34,523 nt of DNA from an uncultured Bacillota bacterium (lineage in GTDB: Bacteria; Bacillota; Clostridia; Oscillospirales; Oscillospiraceae): positions 1 through 34,523 of the forward strand of contig CANSXE010000014.1 in assembly GCA_947650875.1 (NCBI GenBank). Reading direction: 5' to 3'. Numbering within the stretch: the first letter of the stretch is position 1; every line of letters starts with the position of its first letter. This document shows positions 1,888-22,071 of this stretch, piece by piece. A program made the translations under genes and the position numbers. Below the pieces are notes generated by a model that worked only from the letters and a program-made list of their open reading frames with translations, had not been told where the DNA came from and searched no databases.

Positions 1888-2754
1888 TCAGTCGCCCAGA
1901 GCTTTCTCCAGGGCCTGGTACATAACGTCCTTGTCCGGCTTCTGGCCGGTCCACATCTCGATATTCAGCGCGGCCTGGTTGATGAGCATGCCCGCGCCGG
2001 TGGCGCAGGGGATGCCCCGGCGGCGCATCTCACGGATAAAGGCGGTTTCGGTGGGATTGGGGATCACGTCCTGGACGAACATGGTGGGCTTGATGGAGTC
2101 CAGGTCGATGTTGGGCATGGCGTCCACATCGGGGTACAGGCCCACGGAGGTGGCGTTGACCACGATGTCGGTGCCCTCGGGGATGGAGAAGGGGCCGTCC
2201 CAGTCGATGTAGCGGCACTCGGTTTTGGTGTTCTTGCGCAGGATGTCCATCAGGGCGTCGCCCAAGGGGCGGTCCTGGGCCCGGTTGACAATGGTGATGT
2301 CGGCCACGCCGGCCAGGCCCATCTCCACGCAGATGGCCCGGGCCGCGCCGCCGGCGCCGAAGACCACCACCTTCTTGCCGGCCACCTCCACGCCGTTGGA
2401 GGTCAGGCTCATCATAAAGCCCTTGCCGTCGGTGTTCTCACCGAAGAGACGGCCGTTGTCGTTGACGATCATGTTCACCGCGCCGATGAGTTTGGCGCTC
2501 TCGGAAATCTCGTCCAGATACTGCATCACGGTGATCTTGTGGGGGATGGTGCAGTTGATGCCCCGCATTTTGAAGGCCTTCAGGCCGTTGATGGCGTTTT
2601 CCAGCTGGTCCTTGTCCACGTCCAGAGTGAGAAAGTGCCAGCGCTCCAGGCCCATCGCCTGGAAAGCGGCGTCCTGAATGACCACGCCGGGGTTCTCCGC
2701 CACGGGCTGGCCGAACACGCCCACCAGATGGTCCAGATAGTTTTGCTCTTTCAT
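1888..2754 (-). CDS. Shikimate dehydrogenase-family NAD(P)-dependent oxidoreductase, divergent substrate pocket
   Basis: This 288-residue protein (ATG at 2754, preceded by AAAGG) has the two-domain AroE fold. Catalytic residues of shikimate dehydrogenase are present: Lys73 in NCTIPHK and Asp109 in GENTDG. The Rossmann loop is GAGGAARA (133-140), followed by the VNR cofactor motif, and GAGMLINQAA matches the late conserved Gln motif. In contrast, the N-terminal loop that normally reads G-x-P-I-x-H-S-x-S-P is GQPVAENPG. Both serines that hold the shikimate carboxylate are therefore absent (Asn21 and Gly23 by my alignment). It is the last gene of a sugar ABC importer operon, 33 bases after a permease. 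I infer that it oxidises or reduces the imported cyclitol, sugar or a product, rather than serving aromatic biosynthesis. No other aro gene is nearby. Confidence 0.82.
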   Translation of the reverse strand: MKEQNYLDHLVGVFGQPVAENPGVVIQDAAFQAMGLERWHFLTLDVDKDQLENAINGLKAFKMRGINCTIPHKITVMQYLDEISESAKLIGAVNMIVNDNGRLFGENTDGKGFMMSLTSNGVEVAGKKVVVFGAGGAARAICVEMGLAGVADITIVNRAQDRPLGDALMDILRKNTKTECRYIDWDGPFSIPEGTDIVVNATSVGLYPDVDAMPNIDLDSIKPTMFVQDVIPNPTETAFIREMRRRGIPCATGAGMLINQAALNIEMWTGQKPDKDVMYQALEKALGD

Positions 2755-2787
2755 AGAAGACACGACCTTTCAAATCTTTTTAAGTTG

Positions 2788-3789
2788 TTACACCCGCTCG
2801 CGCTTGCGTTTGTTGTCATAGCTGTCCAGGAACAGGATGGCCACGATGACAAAGCCCTGGATAAGCTGGATGATATAGGCGTTGGGCACCAGATTTTGCA
2901 GGGTGATCTCCAGGGCGGAGAAGAACAGCACGCCGATGGCGGACTGCCACACGCCGCCCACGCCGCCGGCCATGGAGGTGCCGCCCACCACCACGGCGCA
3001 GTTGACGATCATGGCGGTCATGTCGCCATAGTTGGCGTTGCCGGCGCACAGATAGGAGGAGTTGACAATGCCTGCCACGGTGGTCAGCCCGGCGGAGAGG
3101 ACGAAGGCCATCCACTTCTGCCGCACAGCGGGGACACCGGCATACTCAGCCACGCCATAGTCGCCGCCAATGGCGTAGATGTTCCGGCCAAACTGGGTGT
3201 ACCGCAGAATCAGGCTGAAAATCAGCACGATGAGCAGCATAATAATGACCATGTTGGGGATTTTGGCCAGACCAAAGACCAGGTGGTTGCCCATAGCCAG
3301 GTCGTTGAAGGACAGATTGGCGGAGATGGGATGGGCGTTGGTGAGCTGAAGGGCCACGCCTTTCAGCAGTACGCCCATACCCAGGGTGACGATAAAGCCC
3401 TCCAGCTTCTGGTGGACGATGAAAAAGCCGTTGACAGCGCCCACCAGCATGCCGATGGCGATGGTGCAGATGATGGCCAGCCAGGCGGGCATGAACTCCA
3501 TAAACTTGATGACCAGTACGCCGGACAGAGCCAGCATACCGCCGATAGACAGGTCGATGGAGTGGACCATAACTGCAAAGGTGACGCCGCAGGCCACAAT
3601 AATGTTGACGGTGGATTTTTGGAAGATCAGCGTCTGGGAGTAGCTGGAGAAGAAGCTGGTGGTATTGCCAAAGCTGTAAAACAGCATAATCAGGTAGAGC
3701 AGGGCAATGGCGGCGATGGCCTTATGCCCATAGAGGAAGGCGCCGAAGCCCCTGGCTCTGTCCTGTAATGTATAAGCCTTCTGTTCCAT
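2788..3789 (-). CDS. Ribose-type ABC transporter permease (second)
   Basis: This 333-residue, strongly hydrophobic protein belongs to the BPD_transp_2 / RbsC family, the membrane subunit of ribose-class sugar importers. Family signatures include HSIDLSIGGMLALSG in the first third and ANYGDMTAMIVNCAVVVGGTSMAGG near the end, the latter being the permease loop around the conserved glycines. About eight to ten membrane segments are apparent. The start is supported by GAGGAGG seven bases upstream. It follows a related permease after 13 bases, so the importer probably uses a heterodimeric membrane channel. The oxidoreductase gene follows after 33 bases. Substrate is not predictable from the permease alone. 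Confidence 0.9.
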   Translation of the reverse strand: MEQKAYTLQDRARGFGAFLYGHKAIAAIALLYLIMLFYSFGNTTSFFSSYSQTLIFQKSTVNIIVACGVTFAVMVHSIDLSIGGMLALSGVLVIKFMEFMPAWLAIICTIAIGMLVGAVNGFFIVHQKLEGFIVTLGMGVLLKGVALQLTNAHPISANLSFNDLAMGNHLVFGLAKIPNMVIIMLLIVLIFSLILRYTQFGRNIYAIGGDYGVAEYAGVPAVRQKWMAFVLSAGLTTVAGIVNSSYLCAGNANYGDMTAMIVNCAVVVGGTSMAGGVGGVWQSAIGVLFFSALEITLQNLVPNAYIIQLIQGFVIVAILFLDSYDNKRKRERV

Positions 3790-3802
3790 TCTTCACACCT
3801 CC

Positions 3803-4792
3803 TCAGTTGCTCTGCAGGTTCTTGCGGTTGTCGGCCCAGATGGCAAAAATCAGCACCGCGCCCTTCATCACATACTGCATGTGGCTGGACACGCCCAGCA
3901 GATTCATGCAGTTGGAAAGCAGCGTGACCAGCAGCACGCCCAGCATGGTGCCCAGCACGTTGCCCTTGCCGCCGGCCAGAGAGGTGCCGCCCACCACCAC
4001 CGAGAGGATGGCGTCGTTGTCGTAGCCCAGGCCCACTGTGGGGGAGGCGTTGGTGACCCGGCTGACCAGCATCAGCGCGCCCATGGCAGTCATCATGCCG
4101 CCGATGGCCAGGGTGCGCATGATGGTCACGTTGACGTGGATGCCCGCCAGGTCGGCGGCGGTCTTGTTGCCGCCTGCCAGGGACATGCAGCGGCCGGAGT
4201 AGGTCCGCTTGTGGTAGAAGTTTAAAATCAGCATGACCGCTACAAAGAGGACCATGGCGATGGGAATCACCCCGAAGACGTTGTAGCTGCCCATGAACTT
4301 AAAAATGGTGTAGGGCTTGTCGCACCAGCGCAGCTGCTGGGTCTTGCCGTCGCTGATGAGCATGGCCGCCGCCGACCACACCTGGGACATGCCGAAGGTG
4401 ATAAACAAACCCTCCGCCTGGGTGGTGCCGCCGCTTCGGGTGATGAGGGCTCCGTTGAGGAAGCCGGCGAACAGGCCGAAGATCAGGGTCATAATCAGCG
4501 CGCCCACCTGGCCCAGGGGGTTGACCAGAATGACCGACATGACGGCGCAGATGTTCAGCATGCCAGGGATGGACAGGTCGATAAAGCCGCAGATGATGGC
4601 GAAGGTCAGGCCCAGGGCCACAAAGGACAGGGCGCCGAACTGGCGCATGATGTTGGTCAGGTTGCTGACCTTGAGGAACTTGGGCTCCACCATGGCGGTG
4701 ATGATGGCCAGCGCGATGAGGATGACCACCAGCATATGGTCCATGATGAAGCGGATGACGGTCTGAGAGTCGATTTTTTGTGTCTTTTTCAT
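3803..4792 (-). CDS. Ribose-type ABC transporter permease (first)
   Basis: This 329-residue BPD_transp_2 / RbsC-family permease has the signatures ICGFIDLSIPGML and GYDNDAILSVVVGGTSLAGGKGN. It is clearly related to the next gene downstream but not a recent duplicate, since the two differ through most of their length. The start at 4792 is preferred over an ATG two codons earlier, which would directly abut the AAGGAGGG ribosome-binding site; from 4792 the spacing is normal. The preceding ATPase gene ends 12 bases away. The tight packing shows one operon: binding protein, ATPase, permease, permease, oxidoreductase. Confidence 0.9.
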   Translation of the reverse strand: MKKTQKIDSQTVIRFIMDHMLVVILIALAIITAMVEPKFLKVSNLTNIMRQFGALSFVALGLTFAIICGFIDLSIPGMLNICAVMSVILVNPLGQVGALIMTLIFGLFAGFLNGALITRSGGTTQAEGLFITFGMSQVWSAAAMLISDGKTQQLRWCDKPYTIFKFMGSYNVFGVIPIAMVLFVAVMLILNFYHKRTYSGRCMSLAGGNKTAADLAGIHVNVTIMRTLAIGGMMTAMGALMLVSRVTNASPTVGLGYDNDAILSVVVGGTSLAGGKGNVLGTMLGVLLVTLLSNCMNLLGVSSHMQYVMKGAVLIFAIWADNRKNLQSN

Positions 4793-4804
4793 TGCCATCC
4801 CTCC

Positions 4805-6292
4805 TTAACCCAACACCTTATCCATGATGGTGTCCACGGAGTCGGTAACGGGGTTAAACTCGCCGGTGATCCGGCCCTCGCAGACGGCCAGCACCCGGTT
4901 GCTCATATTCAGCACCTCGGGCAGCTCCGAGGAGATGAGGATGATGGAGCCGCCGTTTTCCACGATGCGTTTCATCAGCAGGTAAATTTCAAACTTGGCG
5001 CCCACGTCGATGCCGCGGGTGGGTTCGTCCAAAATCAGCACCTTGGGGCTCATCTCCAGCCAGCGGCCCAGAACGCACTTTTGCTGGTTGCCGCCGGACA
5101 GAGAGACCACCTTGGTCTCGGCCGAGGGGGTCTTGATGAGCAGGTCCTCAATCTGGCGCTGGGAGAGCTCCTTCTCCTTGGAGCCGTTGACCACCTTCAG
5201 CGGCCCGCTGGAGATGTTTTTCAGGGCGGCCATGGAGATGTTGGAGCCCACGCCGAAGGGGAGCACCAGACCTTGCAGCTTCCGGTCTTCAGGGACCAGG
5301 GCCATGCCCAGGGCGATGGCGTCCCGGGGATTTTTGATATGGACGGGCTTGCCCTCCATCTTCACGTCGATGGAGCGGACGTGGTCCGCGCCGAAGAGGG
5401 CCCGGATCATCTCGGTGCGCCCCGCGCCCACCAGGCCCACCAGGCCAAGAATTTCGCCCCGGTGCAGCTGGAAGGATACGTCGTGGAGCTTGTGGGAGTT
5501 GAGGTTGCTCACCTCCAGCAGCACATCGCCTACGCACTCGGGGCGGGGCGGGTACTCGTTTTCGATCTCCCGGCCCACCATCTTTGTAATCATCTCGGCC
5601 CGGGTGAGATCGGCCACCGGTTTGCTGTCGATAACGTGGCCGTCCCGCATGATGGTGATGCTGTCGCACAACTCAAAAATTTCGTCCAGCTTGTGGCTTA
5701 TGTAGATCACCGAGATGCCCTGCTGCACCAGCTGGCGGACAATCTGAAACAGGGCCTTCAGCTCGTCAGCGGTGAGGGAGCTGGAGGGTTCGTCCATGAT
5801 GATGAGCTTGGAGTTGAAGGACAGGGCCTTGGCGATCTCCACCATCTGCATCTCAGAGGTGGACAGGTCTTTCACAAGCGCGTGGGTGCGGATTTTGCTG
5901 CCGATGCGGTCCAGCAGCTCCCGGGCCTTCTTGTGGGTGCCCCGCATGCCGCCCACTTCCTTAAAGCGGCCCATAAAAATGTTTTCGCCCACCGTCATGG
6001 TCTGCACCAGGTTAAACTCCTGATAGATAATGCTCATGCCCCGGTTGAGGGATTCCACAGGGGTGGTCTTCTCAATGACCTGCCCGTCGAAGACCACCTC
6101 GCCGCTGTCTTTGGTGTAGACGCCGGAGAGAATCTTCATCAGCGTGGATTTGCCGGCGCCGTTTTCGCCCACCAGGCCGTGGACCTCGCCCCGTTTGACC
6201 CGGATGGATACGTCGTCCAGGGCCTTGACGCCGGGGAAGCTCTTGTTCACATGGGACATGGTAAGGATGTACTCGCTGTTTTTAGTTTCCAT
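4805..6292 (-). CDS. Sugar ABC transporter ATPase with two nucleotide-binding domains (RbsA-like)
   Basis: The 495-residue protein contains two fused ABC domains, as in RbsA, MglA and XylG. Domain 1 has Walker A GENGAGKST, a degenerate signature LSTSEMQ and Walker B LIIMDEP. Domain 2 has the usual degenerate Walker A GLVGAGRTE, a canonical signature LSGGNQQ and Walker B LILDEPTRGIDVG. Such proteins energise uptake of monosaccharides, polyols, autoinducer-2 or nucleosides through RbsC-type permeases. GAGGAG stands about seven bases before the ATG. A 169-base gap rich in stem-loops separates it from the binding-protein gene upstream, which would allow unequal expression. Confidence 0.93.
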   Translation of the reverse strand: METKNSEYILTMSHVNKSFPGVKALDDVSIRVKRGEVHGLVGENGAGKSTLMKILSGVYTKDSGEVVFDGQVIEKTTPVESLNRGMSIIYQEFNLVQTMTVGENIFMGRFKEVGGMRGTHKKARELLDRIGSKIRTHALVKDLSTSEMQMVEIAKALSFNSKLIIMDEPSSSLTADELKALFQIVRQLVQQGISVIYISHKLDEIFELCDSITIMRDGHVIDSKPVADLTRAEMITKMVGREIENEYPPRPECVGDVLLEVSNLNSHKLHDVSFQLHRGEILGLVGLVGAGRTEMIRALFGADHVRSIDVKMEGKPVHIKNPRDAIALGMALVPEDRKLQGLVLPFGVGSNISMAALKNISSGPLKVVNGSKEKELSQRQIEDLLIKTPSAETKVVSLSGGNQQKCVLGRWLEMSPKVLILDEPTRGIDVGAKFEIYLLMKRIVENGGSIILISSELPEVLNMSNRVLAVCEGRITGEFNPVTDSVDTIMDKVLG

Positions 6293-6413
6293 GCCAATCT
6301 CCTCGTTACATCAGATTTGCGCTGCGGCACCGCTGCGCGTCCCAGCGGGCTTTTTGATGCCCTGGACGGCGGGGGAGTGTTCCAGGGCAGCCTAAAACCC
6401 GCCTGATATCAGG

Positions 6414-6448
6414 AAGGGCCCGCTTCGCTCGAAACGAAGCGAGCCCTT
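6414..6448 (-). terminator. Intercistronic hairpin after the binding-protein gene (attenuator-like)
   Basis: On the minus strand the arms form a stem of about 14 bp with one mismatch around the loop TTTCGAG (6428-6434). Only a weak T-tract follows on that strand. Further left in the same gap are a perfect 12-bp palindrome CCTGATATCAGG (6402-6413) and an 8-bp stem, GCCCTGGA (6359-6366) with TCCAGGGC (6381-6388). Leaky termination or 3'-end protection would give more binding protein than transporter, as is common for such operons. Confidence 0.6.
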
Positions 6449-6461
6449 TTGGTTCATTCGC

Positions 6462-7475
6462 TTACCACTCGGGAGCGGTGAAGTCGTTGATGTTGTCCAG
6501 GGTAACGATATCCATCTTGATGAAGTTGGTGGAGGGGACCTCCTCACCCTTCAGGGCCTTCACAGCCAGGGTCATGGAGTCCACAGAGTCGGTCTCAAAG
6601 TTATTCATAATGGTGGCGTACTGAGTGCCGTCGCTGACCTGGTCGAAGCCGGCGCGGCAGCCGTCCACGGCCACGATGAGCACGTCGTTCATGCCCTGCG
6701 CCTGGAGGGCGTTGATGATGCCGGTGGCGCCGTTGTCCCAGTGGCAGAAGACGGCCTCGATGTCGTCGCCATACTTGGTAACAAAGTCCTCAGCGATGGC
6801 CTGCGCCTCGTCAGAGGCCCAGTGCTCGGTGTTCTGGCAGTCCAGAATCTCAAACTCGGGGTGGTCCTTCATAACGGACATGAAGCCGTCGTGACGGAGA
6901 ATCTGGGCGTTGTGGCCGGCCTGGCCGCCGATCTCGACCATCTTGCAGCCGTTGGGGAACTTCTCGATGAAAGCGTTGGCGGCGGTGATGCCGGCTTCGG
7001 TGTCGTTGATGCCCACGAAGAAGTCGCGGTAGGCTTCCTCGGTGATGTCGGCGGAGTAGGTGGACAGGAGCACATCAGGGTTGTTCTCCTTGATGGCCTT
7101 GTAGGCGGTCACCAGACCGGCGGCATCGCAGGGGTTGACGATGATCCACTGATAGCCCTGAGCAGCGGCCTGCTGCACATTCTCGGCCTGCTTGGCGGCG
7201 TCGCCCTGGTCGTCCAGAACGTCAACCTTCATGCCAAACTCGGCCTCATGCTTCTGGAACATCTTGTAGGCAAAGGCCTGGGACTCGTTGTTCATAGAAG
7301 CGCAGTAGACGGCCTTGATAACGTCGCCGCCAGCGGAGGGAGTGCCGCTGCCTGTGGAGGGAGTGCCGGGATTGCTGCCGGTGGTAGAGGGAGTGCCGGG
7401 GTTTCCGCCGCCGCAGGCGGCGAGGGCCAGGGCCATGGACATGGCCAGCAGGAGAGCAGTAATTTTCTTTTTCAT
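6462..7475 (-). CDS. Sugar ABC transporter substrate-binding lipoprotein (ribose-type, Peripla_BP_4)
   Basis: The 337-residue precursor begins with a lipoprotein signal peptide: MKKK, a hydrophobic stretch, then the lipobox LAAC with Cys21 as the lipidation site. A Gly/Pro/Ser/Thr linker containing near-repeats of NPGTPSTTGS follows to about residue 55. The type I periplasmic binding fold comes next, with recognisable elements INDTEAGITAANAFIEKFP, the Gly-rich segment near EIGGQAGHNA and IVAVDG in the second lobe. The start at 7475 is chosen because GAGGAGG lies just before it and downstream of an in-frame ATG five codons earlier. It captures the substrate outside the membrane for the importer encoded next. 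The fold suggests a sugar, sugar alcohol or cyclitol; exact ligand unknown. Confidence 0.9.
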   Translation of the reverse strand: MKKKITALLLAMSMALALAACGGGNPGTPSTTGSNPGTPSTGSGTPSAGGDVIKAVYCASMNNESQAFAYKMFQKHEAEFGMKVDVLDDQGDAAKQAENVQQAAAQGYQWIIVNPCDAAGLVTAYKAIKENNPDVLLSTYSADITEEAYRDFFVGINDTEAGITAANAFIEKFPNGCKMVEIGGQAGHNAQILRHDGFMSVMKDHPEFEILDCQNTEHWASDEAQAIAEDFVTKYGDDIEAVFCHWDNGATGIINALQAQGMNDVLIVAVDGCRAGFDQVSDGTQYATIMNNFETDSVDSMTLAVKALKGEEVPSTNFIKMDIVTLDNINDFTAPEW

Positions 7476-7601
7476 GTTTTTCCTCCTCATATGGTTCGGA
7501 TTGATGTATTGTCAACAGGGGACGCTCCCTGCTGAGCACAGATTGGCGCTCCGTTAGGATGCACAAAATTTAGTTGGATTTCTGTGGTTTTATGTAAGTT
7601 C

Positions 7602-7670
7602 ATTCTAAGCGATTGTGAACAAAGTAAAAATCCTTAATCTGCGCTAATTAGTGCACAATCATGAACAAAG
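7602..7670 (-). promoter_or_regulatory. Control region of the ABC importer operon
   Basis: A minus-strand -10-like TAGAAT (7602-7607) lies about 125 bases before the start codon, with only a poor -35 (TTTTAC, 16-base spacing). Three operator-like signals surround it: the inverted pair GATTGTG (7611-7617) and CACAATC (7654-7660), the direct repeat TGAACAAAG at 7616-7624 and 7662-7670, and the near-palindrome GCGCTAATTAGTGC (7641-7654). Such repeats would suit the DeoR regulator encoded nearby. Base matches are direct observation; regulatory function is inference. Confidence 0.4.
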
Positions 7671-7675
7671 CGGAA

Positions 7676-8611
7676 TCAGCTCCGCAGCAGCTCGGCCGCG
7701 CCGATGATGCCGAAATCCTGTTTCAGCTGGGCAAAGCGGAAGTCCACCGGCTGGGGGATGTGGTTGTACCGGTCAAATTCGGTCCGCACCCGATCGAAAA
7801 GAAGGGGGCCAAAGTTGACCAATCCGCCGCCAAAGACATAGAGATTGACATTAAGCAGCTGATAAATGTTGAAGGCGCACACGCCGATGTAGTGGGCGGT
7901 CTGGTCCAGCATCTCCAGGGCGAAGGGGTCCCCCGCTTCGCAGGCCCGGCGCAGCTCAGCGCCGTCCAGATTGGGGCCCAGGTCCATAATGGTCTTCCGG
8001 CCGGCGGATTTTTTCCGAATCTGGGCGGGGAGATACCGGCCCGCCCCCCAGGACATGAAACAGCCCTTGTTCCGGCAGCCGCACAGCTCCCCCTCGTCGG
8101 GGGTGATGAGCATGTGGCCGCACTCGCCCGCCCAGCCGTAGCTGCCCCGAAAGAGCTGTCCGTTGAGAATCAGCCCGCTGCCGATGCCGGTGCTGGTGGC
8201 CATGTAGATCATGTGCCGGCTGCCCTGTCCCGCACCGAAGCGGTGTTCCGCCAGAGCGGCCACGTTGCTGTCGTTGTCCAGCACGATGGGAACCCCCAGC
8301 CGCTGGGCCAGGTAGTCCCGCATGGCGAAGTCCCGGATGTTTACCATGGCGGAGGTCATACACACATACCCCTGCTCGAAGAGGATAAAGGAGGGCATGC
8401 ACACGCCAATCCCCGCCAGGTCGGCCAGGGTGAGACGGTTTTTTTCCAAAATAGTGTGGATGGAGTCGATTACCATGCCGCAGAAGGCGGGGCCGTCGGC
8501 CTCGATGGGGGTGGGCTGCTGAAAGCGGTCCAGCAGATGGTTTTCTTCGTCGAACAGGCCGTAGGCCACTTTGGTGCCTCCGGCGTCGATGCCGATGCGA
8601 TAGGTGCTCAT
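7676..8611 (-). CDS. ROK family sugar kinase
   Basis: This 311-residue protein is a ROK (repressor, ORF, kinase) family sugar kinase lacking the N-terminal helix-turn-helix of ROK repressors. DAGGTK near the start is the ATP phosphate loop. LDNDSNVAA holds the catalytic aspartate. STGIGSGLILNG is the second glycine motif. The zinc site is His in AGECGH followed by Cys residues in LCGCRNKGC. The glutamate usually two residues after the last zinc cysteine is absent (CFMSW), a small departure that may affect sugar choice. The start at 8611 has AAGGAG eight bases upstream. Its position between the importer and the DeoR/GRE genes suggests that it phosphorylates the imported compound. Glucose or N-acetyl sugars cannot be excluded. 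Confidence 0.88.
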   Translation of the reverse strand: MSTYRIGIDAGGTKVAYGLFDEENHLLDRFQQPTPIEADGPAFCGMVIDSIHTILEKNRLTLADLAGIGVCMPSFILFEQGYVCMTSAMVNIRDFAMRDYLAQRLGVPIVLDNDSNVAALAEHRFGAGQGSRHMIYMATSTGIGSGLILNGQLFRGSYGWAGECGHMLITPDEGELCGCRNKGCFMSWGAGRYLPAQIRKKSAGRKTIMDLGPNLDGAELRRACEAGDPFALEMLDQTAHYIGVCAFNIYQLLNVNLYVFGGGLVNFGPLLFDRVRTEFDRYNHIPQPVDFRFAQLKQDFGIIGAAELLRS

Positions 8612-8702
8612 TGAATAGGCTCCTTCCATGAAAAAAGGTTACGGGGCGACAGGTTTATTTGGGGTTACCTTGGATCAAAAATTACGGATACATACAAAAA
8701 AT

Positions 8703-8716
8703 ATTTCATATGAAAT
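8703..8716. promoter_or_regulatory. Perfect 14-bp palindrome upstream of the kinase gene (candidate operator)
   Basis: ATTTCATATGAAAT is a perfect palindrome centred 98 bases before the kinase start, in an AT-rich stretch of the 168-base gap between the DeoR and ROK genes. Similar AT-rich dyads occur in the GRE/activase divergent promoter region. It is a plausible repressor site; no clear -35/-10 pair could be placed around it. Confidence 0.45.
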
Positions 8717-8779
8717 CTAAAACGGGCTGAAAAGGTGCGCCGTCTGGGTGGGACAGCGCATACCTTATCATCGTGCGGG

Positions 8780-9535
8780 TCAGTCCTCAGCCTGATGAAC
8801 CGTTACCCCTGCTCTCTCCAGGCAGCGGGTCTGTTCCCCGGTGAGACCGCAGTCGGTGACCACGGCGGAGGCCCCGGCGGGCAGATTCAGGGGGACCACG
8901 CCCCGCTGGAAAAACTTTTCGCTCTCGGTCACCACAATCACCTGTCCGGCGTGCTCGGCCATGTCCCGCACGGCCTGGACCCGCAGGTGGTCGTTGCCGG
9001 TGAAGCCCAGGGCAGGGGACCAGCCGTCCGCCCCCACAAAGAGCCGTTCTACATAGAACTGCTGGGCGCACACCTTGAGGATGGGCCCCACCATGACCTG
9101 GGCGTCGTTCTGGAAGTCGCCCCCCAGCAGAACCACCCGGGCCCCGTCCACCCGGCGAATGTAGCTGGCGATAAAGGCGCTGTTGGTGATGATGGTGGCT
9201 CCCGGCTTGCTGTGGGCGATCTCCTCGGCCAGCAGGGCGCAGCAGCTGCCGCTCTCGATCATCACCGTCTCCCCGGGGGAGACCAGTCGGGCGGCCCGGC
9301 GGGCGATGTGGCGCTTCTCCTCGTAGTGGATGGCCAGCCGGTTGTTCACGTCGTCCCCGCTGCCCGACACGGCAAAGCCGTGCTCCCGGCGGAGGATGCC
9401 CCGCTCCTCCAGGGCGTCCAGGTCCTTGCGCACCGTCACCTGGGACACGCCCAGCCGCTGGGCCAGGACGGAGACCTCCATCCGCCCGCACTGGGAAAGC
9501 AGCTCCAAAATCTGGGACTCCCGCGCTTTTCTCAT
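8780..9535 (-). CDS. DeoR/GlpR family transcriptional regulator
   Basis: The 251-residue length is standard for the family. The N-terminal winged helix-turn-helix includes LAQRLGVSQVTVRKDLDALEERG, the classic DeoR signature. A C-terminal DeoRC sugar-phosphate-sensing domain follows, with EKRHIARRAARLVSPGETVMIESGS and the late VADG/VTES-type elements VGADGWSPALGF and VIVVTES. These regulators usually repress sugar catabolic genes and respond to a phosphorylated sugar, which fits a kinase as next gene. The start at 9535 is set by GAGAGG and places the gene just after the activase gene (19-base gap), so the two are likely co-transcribed. Probable targets are the divergent GRE promoter, the kinase and the importer operon. 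Confidence 0.92.
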   Translation of the reverse strand: MRKARESQILELLSQCGRMEVSVLAQRLGVSQVTVRKDLDALEERGILRREHGFAVSGSGDDVNNRLAIHYEEKRHIARRAARLVSPGETVMIESGSCCALLAEEIAHSKPGATIITNSAFIASYIRRVDGARVVLLGGDFQNDAQVMVGPILKVCAQQFYVERLFVGADGWSPALGFTGNDHLRVQAVRDMAEHAGQVIVVTESEKFFQRGVVPLNLPAGASAVVTDCGLTGEQTRCLERAGVTVHQAED

Positions 9536-9554
9536 AAAAAACCTCTCAAAACTG

Positions 9555-10325
9555 TTATCGGAAGGTGCAGTCCAGGCCGGCGTCCAGGAAAATCTGCCGG
9601 TAGTCCGCCAGGTCCTCGGGATGGAGCTGCTCAATTCCGTGGTAGTCGTAGGGGACCCCCATCTGCTGGTATTTTTGCTCCCCAAACTGGTGGAAGGGGA
9701 GGAGATGGACCTCGTGAACCTTCAAATCGATGAGGAGGGCAGCCAGCCGTTTGGCGTCCTTCAGACCGCTGTTGAACCGGGGGATCACCGGGATGCGGGC
9801 GATTATGTCCTTGCCCGAAGTAGCGGCGGTGCGGAGGTTGTCTAAAATCAGCCGGTTGTCCACGCCGGTGCCCGCCCTGTGGACGGTGGGGTCGCTGTGC
9901 TTGACATCCAGAAGCAGGAGGTCCACCTCGTCCAGCAGCAGCCGGAATTGCTCCGGGGCGGCAAAGCCGGTGGTCTCGGCGGCGGTGTGGATTCCCTGGG
10001 CCCGGGCGGCCTGGCACAGGGCGGCGGCAAATTCCGCCTGCTGGAGCACCTCACCCCCGGAGAGGGTCATTCCGCCCCCGGACTGGTCGTAGAAGGCCTT
10101 GTCCTGCAATACCTCGGCCATGACCTCCTCCACCGTCACCTCCCGGCAGCGGCAGCGGTCGTCATCCAGCAGCTGGGCCTGGGCGGCATACCGGTTTTGA
10201 GACTCCGGGTTGGCGCACCAGCGGCAGGCCAGGGGGCAGCCCTTGAAAAATACGGTGGTGCGGATGCCCGGACCGTCGTTGATGCTGAACTTCTGAATAT
10301 TAAAAATTTGCCCGGTCTGTGCCAT
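9555..10325 (-). CDS. Glycyl-radical enzyme activating protein (radical SAM), compact form
   Basis: This 256-residue radical SAM enzyme would use S-adenosylmethionine and a [4Fe-4S] cluster to place the glycyl radical on the GRE encoded divergently next door. The cluster motif CxxxCxxC is at Cys30, Cys34 and Cys37 (KGCPLACRWC), preceded by DGPGIRT, the family signature. MTLSGGEVLQQ is the SAM-binding glycine motif. Most activases of GRE dehydratases carry an insert with two extra iron-sulfur clusters after the first motif. Here only about twenty residues, with a lone CRC, separate NPES from the next helix, so that domain is missing. The start at 10325 has AGGAGG eight bases before it. Partnership with the adjacent GRE is inferred from position and is very likely. 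Confidence 0.93.
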   Translation of the reverse strand: MAQTGQIFNIQKFSINDGPGIRTTVFFKGCPLACRWCANPESQNRYAAQAQLLDDDRCRCREVTVEEVMAEVLQDKAFYDQSGGGMTLSGGEVLQQAEFAAALCQAARAQGIHTAAETTGFAAPEQFRLLLDEVDLLLLDVKHSDPTVHRAGTGVDNRLILDNLRTAATSGKDIIARIPVIPRFNSGLKDAKRLAALLIDLKVHEVHLLPFHQFGEQKYQQMGVPYDYHGIEQLHPEDLADYRQIFLDAGLDCTFR

Positions 10326-10355
10326 ATGCCGCGCCTCCTGTTTGTTTACTCCGTT

Positions 10356-10385
10356 ATTATAGTGGGAGAGCCGCCCCATTGTAAA
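10356..10385 (-). promoter_or_regulatory. SigA-type promoter for the activase gene
   Basis: On the minus strand a TTTACA -35 (10380-10385), 18-base spacer and perfect TATAAT -10 (10356-10361) lie about 30 bases before the activase start codon. They stand back to back with the GRE promoter, so one operator region can control both. Confidence 0.7.
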
Positions 10386-10398
10386 GATGCAAAAATCC

Positions 10399-10422
10399 AC
10401 AAAATTTTAATTTGAAATTTGT
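10399..10422. promoter_or_regulatory. AT-rich imperfect palindrome between divergent GRE and activase promoters
   Basis: The 24 bases from ACAAAATTTT to AAATTTGT pair at nine of twelve half-site positions and contain a perfect 5-1-5 dyad AATTTGAAATT (10409-10419). The element lies between the two promoters, where a DeoR dimer could act on both. Assignment as an operator is inference. Confidence 0.4.
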
Positions 10423-10445
10423 ATACTTTCATTCGTAAGTTTTTG

Positions 10446-10474
10446 TTGACTTACCAAACGGGGTCTGTTATGAT
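10446..10474 (+). promoter_or_regulatory. Strong SigA-type promoter for the glycyl radical enzyme
   Basis: TTGACT (10446-10451), a 17-base spacer and TATGAT (10469-10474) each match the SigA consensus at five of six positions. The start codon is 58 bases downstream. A small hairpin GGGGAA-GGC-TTCCCC lies in the leader just before the ribosome-binding site region and may stabilise the transcript. Confidence 0.75.
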
Positions 10475-10532
10475 GAAGCCAAAACCGGGGGAAGGCTTCC
10501 CCGCTGACAGTTTTAACAGGAGGTCACAGACC

Positions 10533-12944
10533 ATGAAAAATACACAGCATTTCGGAGATCTGACGCCCCGGATGGAGCATTTCCGGGAGGAGCTGCTGGA
10601 GACCGAGCCCCAGGTGTGCGCCCAGCGCGCCATCCTCACCACCCAGAGCTATAAGGAGCACGGCGACCAGCCCGTCACCCTGAAGCGGGCCTATATGCTC
10701 CAGAACATCCTGGAGCACATGAGCATCTTTATCGAGCCTGACACCCTGCTGGCCGGCAACCAGGCCTCCACCAACCGGGCGGCCCCCATCTTCCCGGAGT
10801 ATGCCATGGACTGGGTCATCCGGGAGCTGGACGAGTTCGAGGGCCGGGACGGCGACGTCTTCCGCATCAGCGAGAAGACCAAGGAGGAGTTAAGGGAGAT
10901 CTACCCCTTCTGGCAGCACAACACCCTCCTGGACAAGGGCCTGGCCGCCATCCCCCCCGAGAGCCGGGTGTTCTACGACCTGGGTATCATCAAGGCGGAG
11001 GGAAATATCACCTCGGGCGACGCCCATGTGGCGGTGGCCTACGCCGACCTGCTGCGGCTGGGGCTGGTGGACTACCAGCGGCGCACCAGGGAGCATCTGG
11101 AGAAGCTGGACCTCACCGACTGTAAAAATCTGAAAAAATCCTACTTCTACCGGGCCATTCTCATTGTGATTGACGCTGTGCGGACCTTTGCCGCCCGGTA
11201 CGCCGCCCTGGCGGAGGAGCAGGCCAAGTCCGCCGCCCCGGAGCGGGCCGCCGAGCTGACCGAGATGGCCCGCATCCTGCGCAAAGTGCCCTATGAGCCG
11301 GCTGAGACCTTCCAGGAGGCGGTGCAGTCCCTGTGGCTGGTCCATCTGGTGCTCCAGATCGAGTCCAACGGACATTCCCTGTCCTACGGCCGGATGGACC
11401 AGTACCTCTATCCCTACTACGCCAAAGACCTGGCCGAGGGCCGGATTACCCAGGACAGCGCCTGCGAGCTGATGACCAACCTGTGGCTGAAGACCTTCAC
11501 CATCAATAAAATTCGCTCCTGGAGCCACACCCAGTTCTCCGCCGGCTCCCCTCTGTATCAGAATGTCACCGTGGGCGGCCAGACGGCGGACAAGAGGGAT
11601 GCGGTGAATCCCATGTCCTACCTGATTCTGCGCAGCGTGGCCCAGACCCGTCTGCCCCAGCCCAACCTCACTGTGCGCTACCACGCCGGCCTGTCGGAGG
11701 ACTTTATGTCCGAGGCCATCGAGGTGGTGAAGCTGGGCTTCGGTATGCCCGCCTTCAACAACGACGAGATCATCATTCCCTCCTTTATCAGCCGGGGGGT
11801 AAAGGAGGAGGACGCCTACAACTACTCCGCCATCGGCTGTGTGGAGACCGCCGTCCCCGGCAAGTGGGGCTACCGGTGCACCGGCATGAGCTTCCTCAAC
11901 TTCCCCAAGTCCCTGCTCATCGCTATGAACGACGGCGTGGACCCCCAGAGCGGCAAGAAGCTGACGGATGGCGCTGGCCACTTCACGGGCATGACCTCCT
12001 ATGACCAGCTGTCCCACGCCTGGGACGTGGTCATCCGGGACTTCACCCGCCACAGCGCCATCATTGAGAACGCCTGCGACATGGTGCTGGAGGAGGACGT
12101 GCCTGACATCCTCTGCTCCGCCCTGTGCGAGGACTGTATTGGCCGGGGTCTCACCCTGAAGGAGGGCGGCGCGGTCTACGACTTCATCAGCGGTCTTCAG
12201 GTGGGCATCGCCAACCTGGCCGACTCCCTGGCCGCCATCAAGAAGCTGGTGTTTGAGGAGAAGGTCCTCACCCCCACCCAGCTGTGGGAGGCCCTCCAGA
12301 CCGACTTCGCCGGCGAGGAGGGGGAGCGGGTCCGCCAGCTGCTGATTCACCAGGCCCCCAAGTACGGCAACGACGACGGCTATGTGGACCAGCTGGTGGT
12401 GGACGCCTACGACGTCTACATCGACGAGATTAAAAAGTACCCCAACACCCGCTTTGGCCGGGGGCCCATCGGGGGCATCCGGTATGCGGGCACCTCCTCC
12501 ATCTCGGCCAACGTGGGGCAGGGGAGAGGCACCCTGGCTACTCCCGACGGCCGCCACGCCGGCGAGCCCCTGGCCGAGGGCTGTTCCCCCAGCCACGCCA
12601 TGGACACCCACGGCCCCACCGCCGTGTTTAAGAGCGTGTCCAAGCTGCCCACCGCCGACATCACCGGCGGCGTCCTCCTCAACCAGAAGGTGACCCCCAC
12701 CCTGCTGTCCCGGGAGGAGAACAAGACCAAGCTTATCGCCCTGATCCGGGCCTTCTTCAACGCCCTCCACGGCTACCACGTCCAGTATAATGTGGTCTCC
12801 CGGGAGACCCTGCTGGACGCCCAGGTCCACCCGGAGGACCACCGGGACCTGATTGTCCGGGTGGCGGGGTACAGCGCCTTCTTCAATGTGCTGTCCCGCC
12901 AGACTCAGGACGACATCATCGCCCGCACCGAGCAGACCCTGTAA
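10533..12944 (+). CDS. Glycyl radical enzyme, dehydratase/PFL-like family, substrate unknown
   Basis: The 803-residue enzyme has the full ten-stranded GRE barrel. The active-site loop is IGCVETAVPGKWGYR with Cys436 as thiyl-radical cysteine and Glu438 as the general base position of the Cys-x-Glu dehydratase group; PFL proper has a Cys-Cys pair instead. The glycyl radical loop RVAGYSAFF places the radical on Gly779, 24 residues from the end. Known relatives act on glycerol, propane-1,2-diol, choline, hydroxyproline, isethionate and other small alcohols by C-O, C-N, C-S or C-C cleavage. Here the residues after Cys-Val-Glu are Thr-Ala-Val-Pro-Gly-Lys, unlike the CVEP of glycerol dehydratase and choline lyase. 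The start at 10533 follows AGGAGG (10518-10523). Neighbours (sugar importer, kinase, AroE-like enzyme) suggest a sugar- or cyclitol-derived substrate. No microcompartment genes are present. Confidence 0.93.
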   Translation: MKNTQHFGDLTPRMEHFREELLETEPQVCAQRAILTTQSYKEHGDQPVTLKRAYMLQNILEHMSIFIEPDTLLAGNQASTNRAAPIFPEYAMDWVIRELDEFEGRDGDVFRISEKTKEELREIYPFWQHNTLLDKGLAAIPPESRVFYDLGIIKAEGNITSGDAHVAVAYADLLRLGLVDYQRRTREHLEKLDLTDCKNLKKSYFYRAILIVIDAVRTFAARYAALAEEQAKSAAPERAAELTEMARILRKVPYEPAETFQEAVQSLWLVHLVLQIESNGHSLSYGRMDQYLYPYYAKDLAEGRITQDSACELMTNLWLKTFTINKIRSWSHTQFSAGSPLYQNVTVGGQTADKRDAVNPMSYLILRSVAQTRLPQPNLTVRYHAGLSEDFMSEAIEVVKLGFGMPAFNNDEIIIPSFISRGVKEEDAYNYSAIGCVETAVPGKWGYRCTGMSFLNFPKSLLIAMNDGVDPQSGKKLTDGAGHFTGMTSYDQLSHAWDVVIRDFTRHSAIIENACDMVLEEDVPDILCSALCEDCIGRGLTLKEGGAVYDFISGLQVGIANLADSLAAIKKLVFEEKVLTPTQLWEALQTDFAGEEGERVRQLLIHQAPKYGNDDGYVDQLVVDAYDVYIDEIKKYPNTRFGRGPIGGIRYAGTSSISANVGQGRGTLATPDGRHAGEPLAEGCSPSHAMDTHGPTAVFKSVSKLPTADITGGVLLNQKVTPTLLSREENKTKLIALIRAFFNALHGYHVQYNVVSRETLLDAQVHPEDHRDLIVRVAGYSAFFNVLSRQTQDDIIARTEQTL

Positions 12945-13139: not shown

Positions 13140-14459
13140 ATGGATCTGAAAGAGAGAAAACCGAAGCAAAATCCCGCAGCGCTGCTGCCCATTCTGGTGT
13201 TCCTGGTGCTGTATCTGGGCATGGGCCTGGTCTTTGAGTACGGCCTGGGCGTGGAGATGGCTTTCTACAACATCCCCATTGTGGTGGTATTTATGGTGGC
13301 GCTGCTGGTGGCCTGCATACAAAACCGGGGGCTGAAGTTTGATGACAAGCTGACCGTTATGGCCCGGGGTGTTGGGGACAAGAACATCATGACTATGATC
13401 CTGATTTTCCTGGTGGCTGGCGTGTTTGTGGGGGTTACCGGGCGGAGCAGCGCCGAGGCGGTGGCCTATTTCCTGCTGTCCGTCACCCCCGCCTGGGCTT
13501 CTGTGGCGGTGCTGTTTGTGGCCGCCTGCTTTGTGTCCACCGCCATGGGCACCTCAGTGGGCACCATCACGTTGATTACCCCCATTGCCGCGGCGGTGTC
13601 CAATGTGTCCGGCTTCTCTATGGCCCTGTGCGTGGGCTCGGTCATGGGCGGGGCCATGTTCGGAGACAACCTGTCCTTTATCTCTGATACCACCATCGCC
13701 GCCTGCAATACCCAGGGCTGTGAGATGCGGGACAAGTTCCGGGCCAACTTCAAGATCGCCCTGCCCGCCGCCGTTGCAACCCTGGCCGTGATTCTGGTCC
13801 AGTCCCTCAACGCGGGGGTTGGTCAGATTGACATCCCCGACTATAATCTGCTGCTGCTTATCCCCTATGTACTGGTGCTGATTGGCGGCATTGCCGGGCT
13901 GAACGTGTTTGTAGTGCTGCTGGTGGGCATTGTGGCGGGCGTTGCTATTGTGCTGCCTACCGGGACCATCGACTTTATGGGCCTGCTGGGGAGTATGGGC
14001 TCCGGGGCTTCGGGCATGTTTGAGACCATTATGGTTACCGTTCTGGTGTCCTCCATGTGCGCCCTCATCCGGGAGTTTGGCGGCTTCGAGGCCCTGCTGG
14101 CCTTTATCCGCCAGGTGTTCAAGGGCCGGGTGGGCGGACGGCTGGGCGTGGGCCTGCTGGTGGGGGCCATGGATATCGCCACTGCCAACAACACGGTGGC
14201 CATCGTTATGGCGGGCCCCATCGCCAAGGAGATCAGCGAGGAGTACGGCATCACCCCCAAGGAGTCCGCTTCTCTGCTGGACACCTTCTCCTGTGTGTTC
14301 CAGGGCGTGATCCCCTACGGCGCTCAGATGCTGGTGGCTATTTCCGCTTCGGGCGGCGTGGTGTCCGCCTTCCAGATTATGCCCTGTCTCTACTACCCCT
14401 ACCTGCTGGCAGCGGCTTCCATTGTATACATTCTGGTGGGCGCGGGAAAGAAAAAGTAA
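13140..14459 (+). CDS. NhaC family Na+/H+ antiporter
   Basis: The 439-residue membrane protein belongs to the NhaC-type ion-transporter family, with about ten to twelve membrane segments. Recognisable family elements are FVSTAMGTSVGTITLITPIA, the motif GGAMFGDNLSFISDTTIAA around the conserved Gly-Asp-Asn and Ser-Asp-Thr residues, and GAMDIATANNTVAIVMAGPIAKEIS in the second half, with its Asn-Asn pair. Members exchange sodium for protons; some exchange organic acids such as malate/lactate or amino acids. GGGAGG stands before the ATG. Its own strong promoter argues against strict co-regulation with the GRE gene upstream. Export of an acidic fermentation product cannot be excluded. Confidence 0.88.
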   Translation: MDLKERKPKQNPAALLPILVFLVLYLGMGLVFEYGLGVEMAFYNIPIVVVFMVALLVACIQNRGLKFDDKLTVMARGVGDKNIMTMILIFLVAGVFVGVTGRSSAEAVAYFLLSVTPAWASVAVLFVAACFVSTAMGTSVGTITLITPIAAAVSNVSGFSMALCVGSVMGGAMFGDNLSFISDTTIAACNTQGCEMRDKFRANFKIALPAAVATLAVILVQSLNAGVGQIDIPDYNLLLLIPYVLVLIGGIAGLNVFVVLLVGIVAGVAIVLPTGTIDFMGLLGSMGSGASGMFETIMVTVLVSSMCALIREFGGFEALLAFIRQVFKGRVGGRLGVGLLVGAMDIATANNTVAIVMAGPIAKEISEEYGITPKESASLLDTFSCVFQGVIPYGAQMLVAISASGGVVSAFQIMPCLYYPYLLAAASIVYILVGAGKKK

Positions 14460-21700: not shown

Positions 21701-22071
21701 CCGCCATGTGCAACCTGGGCTACTGCTACTACCAGGGCATCGGCGTGGCGGAAAATGACGATGAAGCGGTGAAGTGGTTCCAGAAGGCCGCCGGCCGGGG
21801 CCAGCCCCGGGCGCTGTTCCTGCTGGGCGAGTGCTATGAGGAGGGACACGGCGTTCAGGCGGACCTGAAAAAGGCGATGGAGTACTATCAGAAGGCCGCC
21901 GACAAGGGCTACAAGAGCGCCCAGGAGGCCATTGCCCGGCTGAACGGCCAGCCCTCCGGGACCTACACCTATGTGCCGCCCGCCGGTCCGGCGCCCACAG
22001 CGCCGCCCGTTCCCCAGCCCCCCAAGGAGAAGCCCAAAAGGGGCGGACTGTTCGGCTTTTTTAAAAAGTAG
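18733..22071 (+). CDS. Giant SEL1/tetratricopeptide-like repeat protein
   Basis: The 1112-residue protein is almost entirely SEL1-type (TPR-like) helical repeats. No signal peptide is seen, so it is probably cytoplasmic. After a 50-residue polar N-terminus, 28 full repeats of 36-37 residues run from residue 51 to 1060, each with the pattern A-x-x-x-L-G-x-C-Y-x-x-G-x-G-V. From residue 125 the units cycle strictly in three types: 'LGLCYELG' (B), '[10 protein letters not shown]' (C) and '[11 protein letters not shown]' (A). One A unit is skipped near residue 952. About forty cysteines lie in the repeats. The tail is Pro-rich and ends in a basic-hydrophobic [14 protein letters not shown]1 proteins act as scaffolds for protein complexes; no enzymatic domain is present. 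It follows rpoD by 24 bases with no terminator. Confidence 0.92.
18883..21912 (+). repeat. SEL1 repeat array with 324-bp higher-order period
   Basis: Twenty-eight units of 108-111 bp. Units 5-25 (19321-21588) form exactly seven A-B-C blocks of 324 bp (2268 bp) with no insertion or deletion. Units 3-4 (B-C) precede them, and units 26-28 (B-like, C, A) follow after one missing A. Synonymous codons vary between copies, so the expansion is not very recent. Confidence 0.93.

Follow-up and report, generated by a model that had tools for sequence, protein, structure and literature searches.

Radical-mediated glycolysis of 1,5-anhydroglucitol by the Escherichia coli glycyl radical enzyme (GRE) YbiW and YbiY was reportedly described by Ma et al. 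in JACS in 2024 (doi 10.1021/jacs.4c07718), and the published pathway of YbiW and of a second GRE, PflD, is said to continue downstream with FsaA/FsaB and GldA steps. As set out in a section of PMC12441222, YbiW and PflD open 1,5-anhydroglucitol-6-phosphate and 1,5-anhydromannitol-6-phosphate, respectively, to 1-deoxyfructose-6-phosphate after uptake by the phosphotransferase system (PTS); the same source counts 1,5-anhydroglucitol among the main polyols of the human body, present in most foods, and its 6-phosphate as the toxic metabolite in two inherited neutropenias. Here we compare with these systems a gene block at positions 1888-12944 of a contig of 34,523 nucleotides (the whole of which we call the window) from an uncultured Bacillota bacterium. 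The block consists of leftward genes for an activase, a DeoR-family regulator, a ROK kinase, a binding lipoprotein, a double ATPase, two permeases and an AroE-like oxidoreductase, together with a rightward gene for a GRE that we denote GRE1.

We consider it probable that this block serves a PTS-free catabolism of 1,5-anhydrohexitols, with import by a CUT2-type transporter, phosphorylation by the ROK kinase, ring opening by GRE1 and a parallel branch formed by a second GRE and a second kinase (GRE2 and KIN2), which agrees in part with the original prediction, made from the letters of the window, of a sugar, polyol or cyclitol that is taken up, phosphorylated and/or oxidised, and then opened or dehydrated by a radical reaction; what we retain is a cyclic sugar alcohol as the probable substrate, with uptake, phosphorylation and radical ring opening. 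The reactions of this organism's proteins, as we infer them, would run as follows. The importer would take up the free polyol, that is, 1,5-anhydroglucitol and/or 1,5-anhydromannitol, or a keto form; the ROK kinase would form the 6-phosphate; GRE1, charged by its activase, would open the ring of 1,5-anhydroglucitol-6-phosphate to give 1-deoxyfructose-6-phosphate; and GRE2, with its own activase and KIN2, would probably handle the mannitol epimer, or an analogue close to it, in a parallel branch. The kind of GRE represented by GRE1 is known, having been described in 2024; new are the way in which the substrate is delivered, the additional pair of GRE and kinase, the reductase and a lower half for which the published genes are missing from four block-bearing genomes, and no description of an ABC/ROK-fed block with two GREs, two kinases and an AroE-type enzyme was found in the open-licence literature searched. 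If the proposal is correct, a PTS-free ABC/kinase route would enlarge the set of anaerobes that consume 1,5-anhydroglucitol.

GRE1 and its genomic neighborhoods

GRE1 (10533-12944, plus strand; 803 amino acids from an ATG at 10533, within an open reading frame (ORF) that opens with a TTG at 10419) has Pfam matches to the PFL-like domain (697 bits) and Gly_radical (114 bits), and displays the RVxGY Gly radical loop, the Cys-x-Glu pair and the PFL-like domain that define GREs of the PFL2/glycerol-dehydratase type. Counting from this ATG, the G-C436-V-E438 and R-V-A-G779 sites lie where the original prediction had placed them. In a phmmer search of the sequences of solved structures, the best matches of GRE1 are three YbiW sequences (886, 878 and 878 bits), followed by glycerol dehydratase (594 bits), and it shares 52% of its residues with E. 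coli YbiW and 37% with PflD. Across an alignment of 84 GRE1 sequences, from which three shorter GRE fragments of the loci were excluded, H165, S282, R287, H332, S336, S339, Y342, K444, W445, Y447, R448 and T450 do not vary and are shared with YbiW; PflD and GRE2 both depart from six of these (H332, S336, S339, Y342, R448 and T450). Within ten motifs chosen by eye and covering 147 positions, the window GRE1 equals YbiW at 129. Furthermore, in a GRE tree of 47 rows YbiW joins the GRE1s, apart from PflD, CutC and others, with support of 87/90, which is below the program's star level; GRE1s linked to ABC and AroE genes are interleaved in this tree with those linked to genes for FsaA-like aldolases (FSA).

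The phmmer ranking and the tree rule out that GRE1 is a GRE of an unknown type; rather, it is of a known kind, that of the YbiW group, and likely a 1,5-anhydroglucitol-6-phosphate ring-opening lyase. Several observations weigh against this assignment. The remaining 18 of the 147 motif positions differ from YbiW, among them W330G, Q334K, F335A, P442G and R650Y, several of the differences being conservative; the tree program flagged the long branches of YbiW, PflD and GRE2, the joins of which may be false; and 52% identity is below the level at which GREs are usually held to be isofunctional. The original prediction matched the gene set to no familiar pathway and would have given up its claim of novelty had the GRE fallen inside a characterised cluster with identical pocket residues. 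As far as the GRE is concerned, that lack of a match no longer holds, given the grouping with YbiW and the agreement in the motifs; the cluster is indeed a characterised one, that of YbiW, and the pocket of GRE1, with the 18 differences, is not identical.

The GRE1s themselves seem to be split into two pocket types, KAEGNxT (the window and YbiW) and GMEGKxN, at residues 154-160 of the 84 sequences, with the Lys shifted from 154 to 158 and position 158 occupied by N in 55 and by K in 29 of them. Replacement of W330/F335 by Q/S occurs in numbers similar to this split, and both pocket types are found in FSA-linked loci.

For the comparison of neighborhoods, the best 80 of at least 574 GRE1 relatives in the scan were kept and combined with four loci of the same genus, one of the same order and the window, for a total of 86 loci; 28 of these are stretches shorter than 15 kb, so that the gene counts of loci are lower bounds, and one locus, L091, is almost the same as the window (99%). 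By ORF comparison, the activase is present in 73 loci, the DeoR regulator in 71, the ROK kinase in 34, the window-type binding protein in 7, and the AroE-like enzyme and KIN2 in 5 each. A gene for an FsaA-like aldolase (31-42% identical to E. coli FsaA) lies near GRE1 in 39 of the 86 loci, within 500 bases in 33 of the 39 and at most 5.7 kb away; in E. coli, ybiWY adjoins fsaA. Some GRE1 loci also contain lactose-type PTS genes (labelled by eye).

The block resembles the E. coli YbiW/YbiY and FsaA system in the GRE group, in most active-site motif positions, in the activase and in the presence of an FsaA-like gene, near GRE1 in those 39 loci and unlinked in this genome. The E. coli system, however, uses a PTS, in place of which the window block has an ABC importer together with a ROK kinase (the search for a PTS did not extend to the rest of this genome); the block also differs in having no linked FSA, an additional AroE-like enzyme, a DeoR regulator and a short activase.

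The activase (9555-10325, minus strand; start chosen by eye in an ORF that extends to a GTG at 10400) matches TIGR02494 with 275 bits against a cut-off of 174. Among the 78 activases with a radical-SAM motif in the 86 loci, 42, including that of the window, are without the ferredoxin insert CxxCxxCxxxC, which is present in the other 36, including the four partners of GRE2. Other genes adjoin particular loci. On the 919-kb plasmid pCR1A of Enterococcus gilvus (L231), where GRE1 is 68.9% identical, genes for an alpha-galactosidase, an alpha-glucosidase and an aldo/keto reductase adjoin the activase gene; a D-lyxose/D-mannose isomerase gene is found near the block in L014, L049 and L056, and a seven-bladed lactonase in L013, L049, L056 and L164.

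The ROK kinase and the AroE-like oxidoreductase

The window ROK protein (7676-8629, minus strand) shares with the ROK glucokinases of TIGR00744 the ROK family, the NDSN and ExGH motifs and the zinc cysteines; it scores 196 against that model, under the cut-off of 260, and its zinc motif, CGCRNKGCFM, departs from the CxCGxxGCx(E/D) of ROK glucokinases in having GCFM where GCx(E/D) is expected. The same departure recurs in the ROK cluster of the GRE1 loci, in which the zinc motif is present in 28 of 35 members and ends in GCxM in every one of these, although they include close kin (the window with L091, and some others) and so do not count as independent. As a control, we took the 30 best-scoring ROK loci from 25 related genomes, including the window's own, a choice that favours canonical ROKs. 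With the window's protein set aside, the motif is present in 26 of 29 and reads GCxE in all 26, three being without it. In these 25 genomes GRE1 was detected at E 1e-150 only in the window's own. E. coli Mak and NanK likewise have GCxE.

The Glu of the ROK motif presumably faces O1 of the sugar, and Met in its place in the GRE1-linked ROKs would fit a sugar that lacks an anomeric hydroxyl. According to PMC5458393 and PMC2742894, the Glu/Asp of GCx(E/D) forms part of the ROK motif and counts among the five residues that bind the sugar, and a passage of PMC12312565 has Glu187 of E. coli glucokinase bonding glucose; we take Glu187 to be the ROK-motif Glu from the residue order given in PMC2742894. 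Two points stand against this line of reasoning. Seven of the 35 cluster members have no zinc motif, six of them in FSA loci, and a passage of PMC13133996 places the corresponding Glu at O5/O6, not at O1; the numbering in that passage is doubtful, as it also sets at O3 the residue expected to act as catalytic base on O6, Asp100. On the motifs, the window ROK is likely to be an anhydrohexitol 6-kinase, and if so, GCxM would serve as a sequence marker for anhydrosugar kinases.

The AroE-like protein (1888-2763, minus strand) has as its best match among solved structures the 5-ketofructose reductase of PDB entries 7cok/7col (244 bits, the next being 187). At the position of SxS, the carboxylate-binding motif of shikimate dehydrogenase, which appears as HSWS or HSLS in the aligned AroEs, the window protein reads ENP, as do seven close orthologues (64-88% identity) and four proteins at about 50%, and the active-site Lys, Asn and Asp are retained in the eight close members. 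With this closest solved relative, the ENP/DNP loop and the catalytic Lys-Asn-Asp, the protein can be predicted to belong to the 5-ketofructose-reductase type of the shikimate-dehydrogenase family; it differs from the described reductase in its linkage to an importer and GREs.

A true shikimate or quinate dehydrogenase, in a block that degrades a cyclitol carboxylate, is hardly credible. The protein does score 227 with TIGR00507, above the model cut-off of 200, and GRE2, which is encoded on contig C49 of the same genome, lies near shikimate-pathway genes (named by eye); these arguments are countered by the ENP that replaces SxS in all eight close members aligned, by a separate AroE with HSWS on contig C143 and by maps of the other genomes, in which shikimate-pathway genes were not seen by eye beside GRE2. 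The ENP loop together with the HSWS protein of C143 also rules out a biosynthetic AroE. On C49 (L096, 7098-11259), the run of GRE2, its activase and KIN2 has, 373 bases further on, genes for DAHP synthase, prephenate dehydrogenase, 3-dehydroquinate synthase and EPSP synthase.

The known reductase converts 5-ketofructose to D-fructose. Judging from the structure formulas, 1,5-anhydromannitol would be beta-D-fructopyranose minus the anomeric hydroxyl, and hence the reduction of 5-ketofructose, carried over to this analogue, would be that of 1,5-anhydrofructose to 1,5-anhydromannitol. By this analogy, the most likely reaction of the AroE-like enzyme is an interconversion between a keto form of the 1,5-anhydrofructose type and the anhydromannitol type, and we propose it as an anhydro-keto-sugar reductase. 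A shikimate-dehydrogenase homologue of C. pasteurianum did not, according to a passage of PMC7954740, reduce 5-ketofructose, which speaks against the proposal and indicates that the shikimate-dehydrogenase family is not uniform. Should the proposal hold, a group of misannotated 'shikimate dehydrogenases' would have to be renamed.

Gfo/Idh/MocA oxidoreductases related to the C-glycoside oxidoreductase DgpA and to 1,5-anhydro-D-fructose reductase are absent from the window and occur beside GRE1, after it, in L012 and L031 and before the ROK gene in L060; of the two types compared, the better match is to the DgpA type (110 and 138 bits), while every NCBIfam match stayed under the cut-off of its model. 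Thus, a non-homologous keto-sugar oxidoreductase sometimes accompanies GRE1. DgpA starts C-glycoside cleavage, for which a section of PMC8563793 reports the proposed release of 1,5-anhydro-D-erythro-hex-1-en-3-ulose; C-glycoside cleavage as the source of the anhydro sugar is a lead only.

The second GRE/kinase pair and the lower pathway

The assembly of this genome comprises 2.09 Mb in 154 contigs and is an estimated 77% complete. The window is contig C14, and contig C49 encodes an AraC-like regulator followed by GRE2, its activase and KIN2 (589 amino acids). The two halves are not adjacent here, the C14 half being flanked by other genes on both sides, which counts against a single block in this genome. 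In the relative L159, however, the order is GRE1, AraC, GRE2, activase, KIN2, activase, DeoR, ROK, binding protein, ATPase, two permeases and AroE, and L158, L163, L164, L165, L166 and L167 are rearrangements of this order. GRE2, its activase, KIN2, the importer genes and AroE share one stretch in seven of seven relatives (stretches centred on KIN2 or AroE); GRE1 joins them there in four of the seven, lies on another contig in two (L015 and L049) and was not sought in G318. On the condition set by the original prediction, that the GRE and the importer genes travel together, the evidence is mixed: a window-type binding protein accompanies GRE1 in only 7 of the 86 loci, a lower bound, whereas AroE, importer, GRE2 and KIN2 share a stretch in all seven other mapped genomes with close AroE orthologues.

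AroE and KIN2 also co-occur at the level of genomes. Among 50 of the 80 GRE1 genomes, which were searched with L089 added by choice as already seen with KIN2, AroE at 63% identity or more is present in 5 and KIN2 in 8, all 5 being among the 8. A search of 391 genomes from the class gave 3 with an AroE of at least 83% identity (one of them this genome) and 11 with KIN2, again with all 3 among the 11; two further genomes have an AroE of 48-51% identity and no KIN2. The corresponding P values are 2.6e-5 and 1.7e-5, with relatedness ignored and the AroE identity cut-off chosen after the tables were seen.

In the GRE tree, the 10 rows of GRE2 make up one clade (100/100), whose sister group consists of PflD and two PflD-like proteins (100/99, a join flagged for long branches), and its first structure match is PflD (632 bits), glycerol dehydratase being close (584 bits). 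The likeness to the E. coli system of PflD/PflC, the frw PTS, FsaB and GldA (1,5-anhydromannitol-6-phosphate lyase) extends to the pairing of a GRE1 with a PflD-type enzyme, which is common to E. coli, L042 and L065 (57-59% identity to PflD) and, as a partial gene (55%), L030. GRE2 is just 41% identical to PflD, and its loop after the Cys-x-Glu differs, both of which weigh against the assignment of GRE2 to the mannitol epimer; moreover, a predicted ROK-fold protein, KIN2, follows it where E. coli has PTS genes.

KIN2 contains the motifs GxDIGGTD and TLGTELGTGW. The protein of this genome has no NCBIfam match at 0.001 and a best Pfam E value of 0.22; of its relatives searched against Pfam, that of L014 has no match, that of L089 reaches E 0.14, and that of L056 matches a BadF-type domain at 2.8e-4 (20.9 bits, under the cut-off of 31.5). 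A comparison with PDB sequences returned nothing relevant. The best of five AlphaFold2 models, built on a five-row alignment, has a mean pLDDT of 78 (the other four 56-64) and a pTM of 0.81, and its top Foldseek matches are the ROK glucokinases 2qm1 (E 1.4e-9) and 3vgk (2.8e-8), with probability 1.00, 15-16% identity, TM scores of 0.67-0.69 by target and 0.39-0.40 by query, and a root-mean-square deviation of 6-8 A. The fold predicted by this one model is ROK-like. KIN2 homologues (31-44% identity) are also encoded in GRE-free stretches, beside a ROK-like protein in L160 and L162 or a sugar importer and DeoR in L161, which implies that the KIN2 family is wider than the block.

These GRE-free homologues are among the facts that would fit a division of labor in which GRE1 and the ROK kinase carry out 1,5-anhydroglucitol chemistry, and the AroE-like enzyme, GRE2 and KIN2 act on a different second substrate that shares the importer, both substrates coming from the same food polymer or glycoside. 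L089 (genome G109) has GRE1, GRE2 and KIN2 in a genome with no AroE above 33% identity, a 7-kb contig (L169) has GRE2 and KIN2 alone, and the GRE2 pocket loop is unlike that of PflD. The sister position of GRE2 to the PflD clade, with the warning noted above, and the PflD-type GREs near GRE1 in L042 and L065, the pairing seen in E. coli, point the other way, and we regard this alternative as rather unlikely.

The lower half of the published pathway is not general among these genomes, which counts against the proposed 1,5-anhydrohexitol route. PF00923 (FSA/transaldolase) is absent from 15 of the 50 GRE1 genomes, three of them with the AroE block (G085, G098 and G105), and 2 of the other 35 have only matches near 1e-6. 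Among nine AroE-block genomes, five are without PF00923, namely G318 (96% complete), G480 (98%), G085, G098 and G105, several of the genomes that lack FSA or GldA being draft metagenome assemblies. FSA is encoded away from the block in G000 and G033, and the matches in G063 and G064 are all weaker and fall within open frames of 345-461 amino acids; PF00923 is also absent from G021, which has GRE1 and ROK and no importer in the stretch fetched. The one FSA of this genome (NF009299, 238 bits, cut-off 214) is on contig C4, unlinked to the block. A GldA-like protein was detected at E 1e-15 in one of seven AroE-block genomes (G085, 31% identity) and not in this 77%-complete genome, where other alcohol dehydrogenases were not searched for; FSA/transaldolase and a GldA-like protein are thus both missing from G318, G480, G098 and G105. 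An unchanged published pathway is rejected on these grounds, half of it being kept. In a search for a gene that might replace FSA and is conserved next to GRE1 where FSA is missing, nothing other than GRE1, ROK, DeoR, activase and importer genes recurred in more than two of the 16 loci compared. If the block functions as proposed, a missing lower-pathway step is exposed that can be searched for in the block-bearing genomes listed.

The FSA-linked (39 of 86) and AroE-linked (5 of 86) loci show zero overlap, and this, together with the lack of PF00923 in five of the nine AroE-block genomes, could be explained by an AroE-like enzyme that acts downstream in place of the FSA branch, for instance as a reductase of the GRE product or of one of its fragments, and not upstream, where the free sugar would be its substrate. 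We hold this to be improbable: the AroE-like gene of the window lies within the importer run, away from the GRE, the closest solved relative of the enzyme takes its name from a keto-hexose without a phosphate, FSA and AroE are both present in this genome and in G033, and the lack of overlap is weak, resting on five AroE loci of which two are near-identical.

Returning to the 1,5-anhydrohexitol reading, a more elaborate version of it can be put forward tentatively, and we would sooner doubt than rely on it. Keto forms released by eliminating enzymes (C-glycoside lyases, alpha-glucan lyase) might be imported by the ABC system, reduced to the mannitol epimer by the AroE-like enzyme as a reductase of the 1,5-anhydrofructose type, phosphorylated by two dedicated ROK-fold kinases, one of a new family, and opened by the two GREs, with a lower pathway that uses neither FSA nor GldA, such that the whole would constitute a two-GRE, two-kinase module for 1,5-anhydro sugars.

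Gene layout of the window

GRE1 is transcribed divergently from the remaining block genes, the interval between it and the activase gene (10326-10532, 207 bases) being the putative divergent promoter region. The DeoR-family regulator is encoded at 8780-9538 on the minus strand (start chosen by eye in an ORF that extends to a TTG at 9685), and the CUT2 importer, on the same strand, comprises a ribose-type binding lipoprotein (Peripla_BP_4; 6462-7490), an ATPase with two ABC halves (4805-6292), permease A (3803-4798) and permease B (2788-3789). The gaps are short between AroE, the two permeases and the ATPase (24, 13 and 6 bases) and between DeoR and the activase (16 bases), and longer between ATPase and lipoprotein (169), lipoprotein and ROK (185) and ROK and DeoR (150). 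The original prediction had counted five genes in the importer operon; the CUT2 importer is there, with four genes, and the fifth gene of the run is the AroE-like one. Its listing of an activase, a DeoR-type regulator, a ROK protein and a shikimate-dehydrogenase-family protein within 1888-12944 stands, as does its remark on microcompartment genes, none of which was seen by eye among the window ORFs (no model search for them was run).

Rfam (gathering scores) and tRNA scans of the window gave no matches. The block is flanked on one side by genes for a RidA-type protein and a diaminopropionate ammonia-lyase (TIGR03528, above cut-off), in this order at 156-1828, which among the 86 loci the window has in common only with L091. 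On the other side lies an NhaC-type gene (13140-14459), dropped as a candidate block member as its cluster consists, among the 86 loci, of the window and the near-identical L091 only. Farther along, positions 18733-22071 encode a protein of 1112 amino acids with many Sel1-like repeats (by eye), and an opposite-strand open frame of 1588 amino acids is probably a by-product of these repeats.

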